Assembly: GCF_001679925.1 (NCBI RefSeq)
Contig: NZ_LYUZ01000086.1
Coordinates: forward strand, 1 to 61,483
Origin: Leisingera sp. JC1
GTDB lineage: Bacteria; Pseudomonadota; Alphaproteobacteria; Rhodobacterales; Rhodobacteraceae
Reading direction: 5' to 3'
Length of the DNA stretch: 61,483 nt
In this document: positions 33,189 through 37,381 of the stretch, piece after piece
Layout of the letters: each line of letters opens with the position of its first letter
Position numbering within the stretch: the first letter of the stretch is position 1
The notes under the pieces: generated by a model
Databases searched by the model: none
Seen by the model: the letters and a program-made list of their open reading frames with translations, nothing else
Told to the model about the DNA's origin: nothing
Position numbers and translations under genes: made by a program

Positions 33189-33205
33189 ACGCCCTTTCTG
33201 CGTCA

Positions 33206-33281
33206 TTTTCCACACGTTATCCGCGAAATTCCTTGTGCTCTCTTGCGGCGGATTCCTCTAGATGTTGACCGGTTTTCCACA
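33206..33281. promoter_or_regulatory. Cluster of three DnaA-box-like 9-mers
   Basis: TTTTCCACA (33206–33214), TTATCCGCG (33217–33225) and TTTTCCACA (33273–33281) resemble the DnaA box consensus TTWTNCACA; the first two are 11 bp apart. The stretch is AT-rich relative to its surroundings. The gene context does not suggest a chromosomal origin; DnaA-controlled transcription of the downstream gene is more likely, as inference. Confidence 0.45.
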
Positions 33282-33293
33282 ATTGGTTAAGAA
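33265..33293 (+). promoter_or_regulatory. Candidate sigma-70-type promoter
   Basis: TTGACC (33265–33270) and TAAGAA (33288–33293) are spaced by 17 bases. They overlap the third DnaA-like box and the CtrA box, so a regulator bound at either would compete with RNA polymerase. Confidence 0.4.
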
Positions 33294-33301
33294 TTCGTTA
33301 A
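33287..33301 (+). promoter_or_regulatory. CtrA-type box TTAA-N7-TTAA (site 1)
   Basis: TTAA, seven bases and TTAA match the full CtrA consensus exactly. The site lies 59 bases before the membrane-protein start at 33360 and overlaps the candidate -10 element. Confidence 0.6.
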
Positions 33302-33359
33302 TTCCATGTAGATTTTTACGTCATTTCAAAAGATGGCATGGGGCAGGGGGCAATTTTCA

Positions 33360-34106
33360 ATGCTGAAGCTGAAAGCGGATGCGCAGCCGGCGGCTGAGCC
33401 GGTCAAGGTGCGCAGCGCGGCAATCCGGATTGACGGGGTGTCAGCACCAAAGAATATCAAAATCGGTCTGGTCGCCGCCAGCACGGGGCCGGCCAAGGCG
33501 AAGCCCGCGGCCGGCGGAACTGCAAAAGACGCCAAGCCCGACAATCCGGTCAGTGCTGCGAAACCCGCCCCCGCGACGCCGGAACCGGCCATGGAACCGC
33601 AGCAGTTTGCACCTTTGCCGGCGGAGAGTGGATCTGCGCTACCAAAACTGGGCCTCGCTGCCGCAGGGCTGGCGGTTGCTTCTGCGATGCTGCTCTACTT
33701 CCAGTTCGGCGGCAGTGCTCCGTCGGCGGATCAGCCGGTAGCGGCTGAGCAAGCTGTGGCAGAGCTTCCCGCAGGGGCCGCGGCTGCAGCGGGTCTGGAA
33801 GGCTCCGCTGCCAGCGGCGAGGATGCATTGGTCGCCCGCATCACCGAAGGCACGCTGGCCGCCCTGCGCAGCAAGCAGGCACAGCCCGCCTCGGCGGTTC
33901 AGGATGCGCCGGCCGCGCCTGCCGAGGGTTCGGCGCTTTACAAGATGGTGCTGACCGCCGCCGCGCAGGGCCAGTCCGCGGCCTATATCGACCAGCTGGT
34001 GAACGGCGCCTATGAACGTCAGGAAATCACTGTTCCGGCCAGCCTGATCGGCGCTGACGGGCGGGTGGATACCGCAACGCTGCTGGCGCTGTTCGTCGGC
34101 AACTAA
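33360..34106 (+). CDS. Single-pass membrane protein of unknown function, candidate CtrA target
   Basis: The 248-residue protein has a cytoplasmic Ala/Pro/Lys-rich N-terminus (1–95), one membrane helix (about 97–116), an Ala-rich periplasmic linker, and a compact C-terminal region (about 195–248, ALYKMVLTAAAQGQSAAY to the end) that looks folded. I do not recognise a family. An AGGGGG ribosome site favours the ATG at 33360 over one nine codons upstream. Its promoter region has a perfect CtrA box and three DnaA-like boxes. It is followed on the same strand by two LysM–binding-protein genes; it might act as their inner-membrane partner. Confidence 0.78.
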   Translation: MLKLKADAQPAAEPVKVRSAAIRIDGVSAPKNIKIGLVAASTGPAKAKPAAGGTAKDAKPDNPVSAAKPAPATPEPAMEPQQFAPLPAESGSALPKLGLAAAGLAVASAMLLYFQFGGSAPSADQPVAAEQAVAELPAGAAAAAGLEGSAASGEDALVARITEGTLAALRSKQAQPASAVQDAPAAPAEGSALYKMVLTAAAQGQSAAYIDQLVNGAYERQEITVPASLIGADGRVDTATLLALFVGN

Positions 34107-34141
34107 GACCCATCGGCTGCCGCGCCAGAAAGGCGCTGCCG

Positions 34142-34164
34142 CGCGGGCAGCAGTTCTGCCCGCG
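34142..34164 (+). repeat. Hairpin between the membrane-protein and first LysM genes
   Basis: CGCGGGCAG and CTGCCCGCG form a 9-bp stem with a 5-base loop. No T-run follows, so it is more likely an RNA-stabilising or processing stem than a terminator. Confidence 0.5.
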
Positions 34165-34241
34165 GACCTTAATCAACAACAAAACAACAGGCGCCGCCTG
34201 CCATTTCTGCGGATCAGGCGCCGTACACTTCCGGGGGGATC

Positions 34242-35321
34242 ATGAAGACCTTTTTCGCTGCCGCCGCCATTGGGCTGTCCGGCCTCTTTGCCACGTCCGC
34301 CGCTGCTGAAACCTGCGGCGGCATCTATACCGTTCAGTCCGGTGACAGCCTGTCGGTGATTGCCGACAAGCTGTACAAGGACGCGGGCAAGTGGAGCGCC
34401 ATCCACAACCGCAACATCGACCAGATCGGCCCCAAGCCGGGTGCTATCCGGGTCGGCATGAAGCTTTCGCTGGCCTGCCTAGAGGGCCTGCCGCTGGGCC
34501 TGCCGGGCGGCAAGGACATCTCCGCCGCCGCCCCCGCATCCGCGGTGCCGGTCAAGGTGGCGCCGGGCAACGCGGCGGTGCGGCAGAAAATCAACCTGCT
34601 GACCGGTGATGACTACGCGCCGTTCACGTCCAAAGCCTCGCACAACGGCGGCCTGATCACCGAGGTGGTGAATGCAGCGATGACCCAGGCTGCCCCGGCT
34701 GAGGGCTACGCGATCCACTGGGTCAACGACTGGTCCTCGCATTTCGACCCGCTCCTGTCCAACGCTCTGCTGGACCTGGGTTTCCCCTGGTACAAGCCCG
34801 ACTGCGAGACCATGCCGGACAGCTACCGCTGTCAGAATTTCCACTTCTCTGAACCGATGTTTGAAACCCTGATGCTGCTGTTCGCGCATAAGGACCGGCC
34901 GTTTGCGTTCACCAGCGACAGCGACATCGAGGGCAAGACACTGTGCCGCCCCGAGGGTTACCTGACCTTCGATCTGGATGAGCGCGGCCGCAACTGGATC
35001 GCCGAGAAGAAAATCACCCTGAAACAGCCGCACAAGGTGAAGGACTGCTTTGACATGGTGGCCGCGGGTGAGGCGGACGCCGTGGCGATCAACGAATTCA
35101 CCGGCCGCAGCGTGATGAAGGAGGCGGGCATTGCCGACCAGTTCACCGTGCTGCCGCAGCCGCTGTCGGTGCTGGGCATCTATGTGGTGGTGCACAAGAC
35201 CCACCCGCGCGCGGATGAGATGTTGGCGATGATCAACAAGGGCCTGCGGTCGATTCAGGAGGATGGCAGCTACCAGACCATCGTCGAAGATCACATGGCC
35301 CGGATCTGGGCCGGGTTCTGA
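34242..35321 (+). CDS. Periplasmic LysM plus family-3 solute-binding protein (paralogue 1)
   Basis: The 359-residue protein has a signal peptide (1–22), an N-terminal LysM module (about 28–78, YTVQSGDSLSVIADKLY) that should bind peptidoglycan, and a solute-binding domain of the amino-acid type (about 115–359). The binding domain includes INLLTGDDYAPFTS, LDLGFPWYKPDC, NFHFSEP and GKTLCRPEGY. Conserved cysteines in KPDC, RCQN, LCRP and DCFD may form disulphides. No ABC permease or ATPase is nearby, so it probably senses or sequesters a ligand at the cell wall rather than feeding transport. A paralogue follows 14 bases later. Confidence 0.83.
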   Translation: MKTFFAAAAIGLSGLFATSAAAETCGGIYTVQSGDSLSVIADKLYKDAGKWSAIHNRNIDQIGPKPGAIRVGMKLSLACLEGLPLGLPGGKDISAAAPASAVPVKVAPGNAAVRQKINLLTGDDYAPFTSKASHNGGLITEVVNAAMTQAAPAEGYAIHWVNDWSSHFDPLLSNALLDLGFPWYKPDCETMPDSYRCQNFHFSEPMFETLMLLFAHKDRPFAFTSDSDIEGKTLCRPEGYLTFDLDERGRNWIAEKKITLKQPHKVKDCFDMVAAGEADAVAINEFTGRSVMKEAGIADQFTVLPQPLSVLGIYVVVHKTHPRADEMLAMINKGLRSIQEDGSYQTIVEDHMARIWAGF

Positions 35322-35335
35322 GGGAGGATGCCTGT

Positions 35336-36358
35336 ATGAGACGGCTTTTCTCACGCCTTTTACAGCTGGCCGCCCTGTTCACCCTGGCGCCGGCAGCTGC
35401 CTGGGCGATTTGCGACGTGGACTACGTGGCGCAGCCCGGGGACTCGCTGTTCACGATCGCAGAGACCCATTACGGCGACCGCAACCGCTGGACCATGGTT
35501 TACTACGCCAACCAGAAACTGCTGGCCGGTGCCACCGTGCTGCCGGGGCGCAAACTGTTCATCCCCTGCATCACCGGCGCCACCGCGCCGGATGCCACCC
35601 CGCTGCGCCAGGAAAAGGCGGAACTGACGCTGCTCACCGGCAGCGGCTACGGCCCCTTCACCGACCGCAGCCTGCCCGGGCAGGGCATGGTAACGGAGCT
35701 CATCAACGCTGCGCTGGAACTGGCGCCCGCGCCGGTCAGCTATTCGGTCAGCTGGGAGGACGACTGGTCCAAACACCTGTTCCCGATGCTGGACAAGAAA
35801 GAGTTCGACATGGGTTTCCCCTGGCTCAAGCCCGACTGCGCGGCTGAACCGGACAACGAACGCTGCGTGAACTTCCATTTCTCCGAGCCGGTCATGACCA
35901 TGCCGATCATGCTGTTTGTGCGGGCCGGCGGCGGGTTTGAGTACGCCGCGGACACTGACGTCGAAGGCAAGACCCTATGCCGCCCGGCGGGGTATTTCAC
36001 CCATGACCTGAACCGTCCTGACCGGCGCTGGCTGGCCGATGGAAAGATCGAACTGGTTCAGCCCGCGACCCCGGCCGACTGTTTTCGAATGGTGGCAGAC
36101 GGCCAGGTTGATGCCGCGGCGGTAAACCTGTTCCTGGGCGCCAACACGATCGTCGCGGAAGATCTGCGCGACACTGTGGTGCCGCTGGAGAAACCGCTGT
36201 CGGAAGAAGGCCTGCATGTGGTGATTTCCAAGCGCCACTGGCGCGGCACCACCCATCTTTACCGGATCAACGCGGGTCTGCAGAACCTGCGCGACAGCGG
36301 CCGGTTCGAGGAGATCATGTCGCGCCATCTGGAATTGTTCTGGGCGCAACTGCAGTAA
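35336..36358 (+). CDS. Periplasmic LysM plus family-3 solute-binding protein (paralogue 2)
   Basis: The 340-residue protein repeats the architecture of its upstream neighbour: signal peptide (1–24), LysM module (about 30–77, YVAQPGDSLFTIAETHY) and solute-binding domain (about 95–340). It has the same signature blocks DMGFPWLKPDC, NFHFSEP, VEGKTLCRPAGY and GQVDAAAVN. The pair arose by tandem duplication and has diverged, so the ligands may differ. It follows after 14 bases in the same operon. No transporter subunit is encoded in the vicinity. Confidence 0.83.
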   Translation: MRRLFSRLLQLAALFTLAPAAAWAICDVDYVAQPGDSLFTIAETHYGDRNRWTMVYYANQKLLAGATVLPGRKLFIPCITGATAPDATPLRQEKAELTLLTGSGYGPFTDRSLPGQGMVTELINAALELAPAPVSYSVSWEDDWSKHLFPMLDKKEFDMGFPWLKPDCAAEPDNERCVNFHFSEPVMTMPIMLFVRAGGGFEYAADTDVEGKTLCRPAGYFTHDLNRPDRRWLADGKIELVQPATPADCFRMVADGQVDAAAVNLFLGANTIVAEDLRDTVVPLEKPLSEEGLHVVISKRHWRGTTHLYRINAGLQNLRDSGRFEEIMSRHLELFWAQLQ

Positions 36359-36377
36359 GGTGAGCGGTTGAGGGAGG

Positions 36378-36728
36378 TCAGGCCGTCAGCGATCTGGCCT
36401 CCTGATAGCCGTGATAGGCAGCCTTGACCTCACCCGGGGTGATCCGGTCTGCAGGCCAGGCGCGCTGCAGCAGCAGGTGCTCTGCCAGCACGGCATTTTC
36501 GTGAAACAGCTCTTCGGCGGGCTCAGGTGTATCCTGTCCGGGAACATCCCAGATGGCACCTCCGCCTTCCGGATGCAGCGCGTCCTGCGCGTGCTCTTCC
36601 TGGCCGCGCGGCGTGTTGTCGGCGGATTCGCTTTTGTCCGGATCGTCAGAGCGGACAACGGGCCGGGCGGTCAGGAAGCCGCGGTTCGGCTTGATAGGAT
36701 CTACACGTCCTGCAACTGGTATAAACAT
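36378..36728 (-). CDS. Small hypothetical protein with upstream CtrA box
   Basis: The 116-residue soluble protein begins MFIPVAGRVDPIKP. It has a charged, probably disordered middle rich in Asp, Glu and Pro, and a C-terminal helical part (HENAVLAEHLLLQRAW and following). No family is recognised. The ATG at 36728 follows a GGACCCTC stretch, a weak ribosome site. A perfect TTAA-N7-TTAA box lies 62 bases upstream. It converges on the second LysM gene. Confidence 0.65.
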   Translation of the reverse strand: MFIPVAGRVDPIKPNRGFLTARPVVRSDDPDKSESADNTPRGQEEHAQDALHPEGGGAIWDVPGQDTPEPAEELFHENAVLAEHLLLQRAWPADRITPGEVKAAYHGYQEARSLTA

Positions 36729-36789
36729 CACAGAGGGTCCTTCGCAAAGGCATTGAACCGATCTTAAACCGGTTTTTACCACAATAGGC

Positions 36790-36804
36790 TTAACAGCGTC
36801 TTAA
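36790..36804 (-). promoter_or_regulatory. CtrA-type box TTAA-N7-TTAA (site 2)
   Basis: An exact match to the full CtrA consensus, 62–76 bases upstream of the start at 36728. The wider form TTAACA-N5-TTAACA is identical to site 3. Confidence 0.65.
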
Positions 36805-36858
36805 CATATTCCGCCATTGGAGTTTGTTGCTGTTCCCGCGGTCCGGCTCCGGCTGCGC

Positions 36859-37200
36859 TCAGCCGATGATCCGCTGCACCTTGGCATAGTTCGCTTCTGC
36901 AGCCAGCGCGCTCACCGGCTTGGGGCCGGCCTGGCAGCCATTCATCAGATCCTGATAAAACGCATCCATGTCGATGCCTTTTACCGGGCGCGGTTCCAGC
37001 GCTTCTGCCCGGGCAGCTTCGCGGGCGGGGCCGATGTATTGGGTGGTGAGGGCGTCAGCGTGCTCGCCGGCCTGAAGGGCGTCGCGGGCCGGCACCATGC
37101 CGTTGGTCAGGGTTGCGTCAGCTGCGGTGCCGGCTGCCGGAGCCTGAATCCGCTTCATCGAGGTATAGAAACCGGCGGTGCTGGAGACTGGTGCAAACAT
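36859..37200 (-). CDS. Small hypothetical protein with upstream CtrA box
   Basis: The 113-residue protein starts MFAPVSSTAGFYTSMKRI, similar in its first residues (MFxPV) to the neighbouring gene at 36728. It is Ala-rich and probably helical, with a single Cys in MNGCQAGPKP and no signal peptide or membrane helix. No known family is recognised. A perfect CtrA box lies 80 bases upstream. It diverges from ogt. Confidence 0.65.
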   Translation of the reverse strand: MFAPVSSTAGFYTSMKRIQAPAAGTAADATLTNGMVPARDALQAGEHADALTTQYIGPAREAARAEALEPRPVKGIDMDAFYQDLMNGCQAGPKPVSALAAEANYAKVQRIIG

Positions 37201-37279
37201 ATTACTGACCTTTAGCTCTGTTCTTGAAATTCACTTTAGTAGAATTTGATACAACCTGGCAGGAAACCTTTAGCACTGG

Positions 37280-37294
37280 TTAACAAGACGTTAA
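37280..37294 (-). promoter_or_regulatory. CtrA-type box TTAA-N7-TTAA (site 3)
   Basis: An exact match to the full CtrA consensus, 80–94 bases upstream of the start at 37200. On the minus strand GTGCTAAAGG follows, resembling the -10 element of CtrA-activated promoters in Caulobacter. Confidence 0.68.
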
Positions 37295-37381
37295 CACACC
37301 GCTGCCGGCGTGGCTGGGCGGGGCTTGCAGTTCAGGTGGCGGCACAGGAGAATGCAGCCGCCTGCAGGCCGGAGGAAAGAC

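Follow-up and report, generated by a model that had tools for sequence, protein, structure and literature searches.

The CtrA regulon of the Rhodobacterales is known mainly from activated motility genes. In Dinoroseobacter shibae, predicted CtrA boxes are found at cckA, divL, ctrA and flagellar genes (PMC4046655). In Caulobacter, a full CtrA motif with its 5' base at -14 is read as repressing and one with its 5' base at -39 as activating, and CtrA half sites lying over the -10 element repress (PMC4287350). The stretch analysed here, referred to as the window, comprises 61,483 bases of Leisingera sp. JC1 (contig NZ_LYUZ01000086.1) and has three sites of the CtrA type, TTAA-N7-TTAA. They are upstream of a membrane-protein gene (MP), which heads an operon with two genes for LysM/solute-binding proteins (SBP1, then SBP2), and of two small genes, sm1 and sm2. 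Sequence and conservation make it very probable that all three are genuine CtrA operators and that the genes are additions to this known regulon. It is also likely, with somewhat less confidence, that they are working operators of different kinds, of which the MP site would block its operon, the sm2 site would activate, and the sm1 sites may exert combined or biphasic control.

Conservation of the three boxes

The scan of the 61,483 bases agrees with an earlier sequence-only reading of this DNA, which had placed exact TTAA-N7-TTAA sites at 33287, 36790 and 37280 and had noticed no further full site in the window; there are three exact matches only. The distances to the genes given in that reading (59, 62 and 80 bases) refer to the same sites, and the bases lying between box and ATG are counted here as 58 for box 1 and MP (33360), 61 for box 2 and sm1 (36728) and 79 for box 3 and sm2 (37200). 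In dinucleotide-shuffled versions of the window, the comparison proposed by that reading, the mean count is 0.02 and none of 100 shuffles reaches three. In the whole genome (5,190,966 bases), the pattern occurs 27 times and the same pattern read backwards 33 times, so that there is no genome-wide enrichment. The clustering of three boxes within 4,007 bases is unusual nevertheless: given 27 genome sites, P = 0.0056, and the expected number of such triplets is 0.0052. The wider form TTAACA-N5-TTAACA, also pointed out earlier, is found in the window, but its final A varies among relatives.

The boxes were compared in a genus set of 21 genomes including the window's own, for which 20 other loci were fetched (233,022 bases in total). 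MP and sm2 occur in all 21 genomes, and 17 of the 21 loci also have sm1. Leisingera sp. ANG-M7 is the closest named relative found, with 97% at sm2. An exact box is present upstream of MP in 21/21, of sm1 in 16/17 and of sm2 in 20/21 of these loci, the window included, and when one mismatch is allowed, the box is upstream of every copy (21/21, 17/17 and 21/21, respectively). No further exact box occurs in the 233,022 bases. When the spacing between paired TTAA elements is counted in the same loci, N7 occurs 65 times and every other spacing from 0 to 24 at most 22 times. The encoded proteins of the far genus members have diverged to about 39-60% identity while the boxes are kept, and in the promoters of sm1 and sm2 the column conservation shows conserved TTAA letters and mostly variable flanking bases. 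Conservation upstream of the orthologues, which the sequence-only reading had set beforehand as the point on which its proposal could fail, is thus observed within the genus. CtrA operators are favoured because the boxes are conserved upstream of MP, sm1 and sm2 and because the same loci have no other exact box.

The three boxes had also been presented as one group. All are conserved full sites, but they do not look like one kind of element: the MP box would cover a predicted -10 region, which suggests repression.

Promoter architecture of the MP operon

The geometry of the MP promoter was compared in 28 sequences, 21 from the genus and 7 from other genera. TTGAC is present in 28/28, and in the window it is part of TTGACC (33265..33270, plus strand), the candidate -35 element of the MP operon. 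CtrA box 1, TTAAGAATTCGTTAA (33287..33301, plus strand), is exact in 21/21 genus promoters and in 3/7 promoters outside the genus, and its first base follows the first T of TTGAC by 22 bases in all 24 box-bearing promoters (for genome G164 the spacing prints as 23, since the match began one base earlier, and is 22 from the first T). In the three box-bearing promoters from other genera (G075, G399 and G367), all eight letters of the two TTAA halves are retained at the 22-base spacing, and the inner seven bases and the spacer are changed.

If TTGAC is the -35 element, then box 1 would cover about -13 to +2, over the predicted -10 element and start of the operon. Because the 22-base spacing would set the box over the predicted -10 element, a repressing position for CtrA in Caulobacter, phosphorylated CtrA (CtrA~P) is predicted to repress the MP operon; the start site is derived from TTGAC and the spacing. 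It is proposed that CtrA~P, bound to an operator over the -10 element and start of this TTGAC promoter, would block transcription of MP-SBP1-SBP2, and that low CtrA activity would let the operon be transcribed.

In the region 33265-33290, TTTTCCACA was seen by eye between TTGAC and the box in 14 of the 21 genus promoters. Anywhere in the 160 bases upstream of MP it occurs in 15/21 genus promoters. The seven other-genus promoters compared do not have it. The sequence is close to a DnaA box.

Promoters of sm1 and sm2

The sm2 gene (36859..37200, minus strand) encodes 113 residues with a conserved C-terminus (QAGPKP..ALAAEA.Y). Its box 3 (37280..37294, minus strand) reads TTAACGTCTTGTTAA followed by CCA, and the form conserved in the genus, read towards the gene, is TTAAC-N6-TTAACCA: CCA follows the box in 20/20 exact copies, the first half is TTAAC in 18/20, and a third TAA half lies at N6 after the box in 17/20. 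Between box 3 and the gene, the element TCAAATT-N-TA-N-TAAAGTGA (37231..37249, minus strand) is conserved, column by column, about as well as the CtrA box and is probably the sm2 core promoter. A canonical TTAAC-N6-TTAACCA box upstream of a conserved core element is the arrangement that would be expected for activation.

The sm1 gene (36378..36728, minus strand; 116 residues) has a conserved start (MF.PV.G) and a LTARPVVRSDDP motif; in one of the 17 genomes the match extends over the first 61 residues only. Box 2, which reads TTAAGACGCTGTTAA towards the gene (36790..36804, minus strand), is accompanied by a second CtrA-like box (36764..36778, minus strand), which has one mismatch in the window; the two boxes are 26 bases apart there and 25 bases apart in relatives. 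Of the 16 genomes with an exact upstream box, 14 have it at the position of box 2 and 2 only at the nearer position. The farther box is exact in 14/17 and the nearer one in 10/17 genomes; a pair 25 bases apart, with at most one mismatch per box, is present in 12/17, and both boxes are exact in 8. Two boxes at this distance may provide combined or biphasic control. For hemE Ps of Caulobacter, boxes at -35 and -10 are described as being bound cooperatively and as repressing (PMC11264516).

Outside the genus, a search of 247 other genomes found no sm1. For sm2, the only good homologue returned by the profile is that of G253 (2e-27), the one in G075 being weak (0.0017); each is located between ileS and ogt. 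An AT-rich stretch similar to TCAAATT-N-TA-N-TAAAGTGA, an element that matches no familiar promoter type, is seen in both. Matches of the sm2 profile in G250 and G268 (E 0.001 and 0.008) are marginal and were set aside as not credible.

CtrA and the other boxes of the genome

The genome encodes CtrA. The protein is named CtrA by NCBIfam NF045991 (430.8 bits versus a cut-off of 350) and is 75% identical to a Caulobacter CtrA query; residues 148-201 (54 residues), in the DNA-binding region, are identical to those of the Caulobacter query. Exact boxes are also found upstream of the MotB gene (motB), of a gene for a CckA-like kinase (its score is below the family cut-off, and the locus is cut), of a gene for a PAS-domain protein, which is taken for DivL (the NCBIfam search gave no identification), and of a Ser/Thr-kinase gene. 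Genes at these other boxes were called by crude open reading frame picks, as were those of the G253 and G075 loci and of the LysM-SBP loci outside the genus described below. The proposal that MP, sm1 and sm2 belong to the CtrA regulon is well supported by the genus conservation, the recurrence of box 1 at MP in three genera outside it, the encoded CtrA, and the boxes at motB, the CckA-like gene and the Ser/Thr-kinase operon. Most of the other genome sites, however, have no evident CtrA link.

Two further boxes of this genome may be mentioned. At L097:2300-2336 (G000:C81:94299-94335), three exact boxes overlap, with four TTAA at 11-base steps, and no convincing adjoining gene was called. At L092:9366-9380 (G000:C13:10465), an exact box is located between two genes resembling ftsA and ftsZ, names that are presumed from the protein sequences alone.

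The Ser/Thr-kinase gene heads a second LysM-SBP operon (L204:3875-11533, G000:C84), with the order Ser/Thr kinase, LysM/SBP, LysM/SBP, FHA protein, PP2C phosphatase and unknown, and with the exact box at its head. Close orthologues of the kinase are present in 7/21 genus genomes, and the exact box precedes it in 7/7. Kinase and LysM-SBP genes are also grouped in other Rhodobacterales genera: at least 10 of 38 other loci with LysM-SBP genes have a kinase-like gene. No exact box was seen before these kinases, which is a weak test because several of the sequences begin within the kinase gene or a short way from it.

MP operons in other genera

Most matches of the MP profile outside the genus are LysM proteins having only the C-terminal region in common with MP. 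An outside-genus MP was therefore counted only if it adjoins LysM-SBP genes, which gives seven genomes in which MP is followed by two LysM-SBP genes (G075, G064, G126, G263, G399, G367 and G387). In the shuffle sets of these seven promoters, 15 of 400 have one box and none has two or more, as compared with the three promoters with an exact box (G075, G399 and G367). In G075 the MP operon is near gyrB, away from ileS, yet it has the exact box at the same spacing. A survey of 42 LysM-SBP loci outside the genus (of 56 genomes listed; 470,802 bases) finds six exact boxes, of which four precede the first gene of the operon, at about 60-90 bases from MP in three cases and at 123 bases from SBP1 in G375, and two are elsewhere.

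An adhesin gene (BapA_N domain, Ig repeats) adjoins the MP-SBP operon in G064, G126, G263 and G387 (loci L148, L149, L150 and L185), and an outer-membrane efflux gene is present in three of these four loci, the G387 gene being labelled by its likeness to the G064 protein. In G367, a type I secretion cluster (ABC transporter, HlyD family protein, partial outer-membrane-efflux match) is located about 2 to 5.5 kb from MP. For the other two box-bearing loci, no adhesin is labelled in G399 and none of that kind was seen by eye in G075. A trypsin-like protease gene stands beside the G367 MP operon (L186:4536-5300), and another box of the window genome is at a trypsin-like gene (L109:1323-2171).

A BapA_N protein is encoded in 21/21 genus genomes, outside the fetched MP loci. 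The idea that CtrA also drives this adhesin was rejected: among its 20 readable upstream regions (that of the window genome, L259, at a contig end, was left out), none has an exact box and one single-mismatch site was found.

Gene products of the locus

The MP protein (33360..34106, plus strand; 248 residues) has one likely membrane helix at about residues 96-115, according to a low-confidence model, and a conserved C-terminal region. An in-frame ATG is also present at 33333, but the protein conservation starts at 33360. The C-terminal region of MP recurs, as seen by eye in L121-L144, in Rhodobacterales proteins that have a single membrane helix at the N-terminus and, apparently, a C-terminal LysM domain. 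SBP1 (34242..35321, plus strand) is a LysM and SBP_bac_3-like periplasmic protein, with scores slightly below the cut-offs (SBP_bac_3, 25.1 bits versus 26.4; LysM, 19.5 versus 20.9). SBP2 (35336..36358, plus strand) is a second, diverged LysM/SBP_bac_3-like protein, for which SBP_bac_3 scores 23.2 bits (cut-off 26.4) and the Pfam LysM model 11.7 bits (cut-off 20.9); an NCBIfam LysM model matches with E 1.6e-6. The weak PHROGs matches of SBP1 and SBP2 to endolysin, tail, transglycosylase and unknown families (best E 1e-7) are taken to reflect their LysM/SBP domains. In contrast to these two proteins, MP, sm1 and sm2 have no family match in Pfam, NCBIfam or PHROGs.

Structure predictions with five sequences each gave poor models, with a mean pLDDT (predicted local distance difference test score) of 36.9 for MP and 52.5 for sm2. 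A search of a plasmid collection returned a single match (73%), spanning the two SBP genes only. The locus is flanked by ileS upstream (named by eye) and by an ogt-type methyltransferase gene beyond sm2.

The sequence-only reading had connected these genes with motility or gene-transfer agents through CtrA. Neither flagellar nor gene-transfer-agent homology of MP, sm1 or sm2 was found in Pfam, NCBIfam and PHROGs; the family searches tie none of the genes to either, and the nearest association is that with the BapA-type adhesin in other genera.

Alternative explanations

Several observations weigh against operators of the proposed kinds. At MP, the candidate -10 sequence (TAAGAA or AAGAAT) is a weak match, and the box may contain this element without acting as a repressor site. 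In Caulobacter, the -10 repressor class consists mostly of half sites, and full sites are mostly near -35 (PMC4287350). In Phaeobacter inhibens (PMC12363192), loss of the phosphorelay mostly lowers expression, and repression would therefore be the less usual mode. The pattern is no more frequent in the genome than its reversed control, and several of the boxes that lack an evident CtrA link are inside or behind genes. Outside the genus, an exact box is absent both from the sm2 homologues of G253 and G075 (0/2) and from the MP promoters of G064, G126, G263 and G387, which are those with the operon beside the adhesin. It is conceivable, though rather unlikely, that all three boxes are CtrA sites and all are activating, including that of MP, so that the genes would belong to the usual motility-phase regulon. 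CtrA being mostly an activator in P. inhibens (PMC12363192), the canonical sm2 box, and the box of G375, which reads TTAACGGTTTGTTAACCAT and lies 123 bases before SBP1, fit this possibility. It does not explain the spacing from TTGAC, which in 24/24 promoters brings the MP box onto the predicted -10 element, a position from which CtrA reportedly represses; repression of the MP operon by CtrA is preferred here.

It is improbable that the repeats are conserved core-promoter parts, or sites of another regulator, which only resemble CtrA boxes. A long stretch around the MP box is conserved within the genus, and the lack of genome-wide enrichment would also suit such an explanation. Yet the MP promoters of G064, G126, G263 and G387 retain TTGAC without the box, and therefore the promoter does not need it; those of G075, G399 and G367 retain the TTAA letters while the bases between them differ; conservation at sm1 and sm2 includes the TTAA letters and leaves out most of the flanks. 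Another regulator is also disfavoured by the encoded CtrA, which is identical to the Caulobacter query in its DNA-binding region. Hardly any weight is given to chance, by which AT-rich intergenic DNA happened to yield three TTAA pairs. Some of the 27 genome sites are surely fortuitous, but these three are conserved in 16 to 21 genomes whose encoded proteins fall to about 40-60% identity, in loci without any other exact site, and chance is refuted in practice by this genus conservation.

Significance of the proposed CtrA control of the locus

With CtrA as the regulator and the MP box as a repressing operator, the box locked on the predicted -10 element of an envelope operon is a concrete candidate for a site at which CtrA would directly repress the sessile half of the switch. 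In other genera, this operon is found with an adhesin or with a type I secretion cluster, and our guess is that it serves the sessile state as an envelope-sensing unit anchored to peptidoglycan. Tentatively, and with clearly less confidence than for the operators themselves, it may be proposed that CtrA directly times two LysM/solute-binding envelope operons, the repressed MP operon and the kinase-FHA-PP2C operon. This would tie an undescribed peptidoglycan-anchored sensing system to the swim-or-stick decision, with sm1 and sm2 as small lineage-restricted effectors of the same switch. The two small genes are marked as targets worth attention. CtrA and its binding site are familiar. Within the searches made, the features that look new are the targets, the fixed position of the operator over the promoter in several genera, and the twofold connection with LysM-SBP genes; the literature listings and text passages searched contain no description of these genes as CtrA targets.

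Comparison with known systems

The locus has the TTAA-N7-TTAA operator, and the CckA-ChpT-CtrA relay, in common with the Rhodobacterales CtrA regulon described for D. shibae and P. inhibens. It differs from that regulon in its genes, as the MP, SBP, sm1 and sm2 genes are not named in the passages and sections consulted of the two regulon papers (PMC4046655, PMC12363192). The kinase/FHA/PP2C operon of the same genome also has a LysM-SBP pair and an exact CtrA box at its head, whereas the window operon has MP instead of the kinase and is without an FHA or PP2C gene. The pair of boxes at sm1 is comparable to that of hemE Ps in Caulobacter. The positions at MP are derived from the conserved TTGAC and its spacing, unlike the mapped starts of the CtrA-repressed Caulobacter promoters; with these predicted positions, the MP promoter would share the arrangement reported for ctrA P1, P3 and hemE Ps, an operator that covers the -10 element and has its 5' base near -14 (PMC4287350, PMC11264516).

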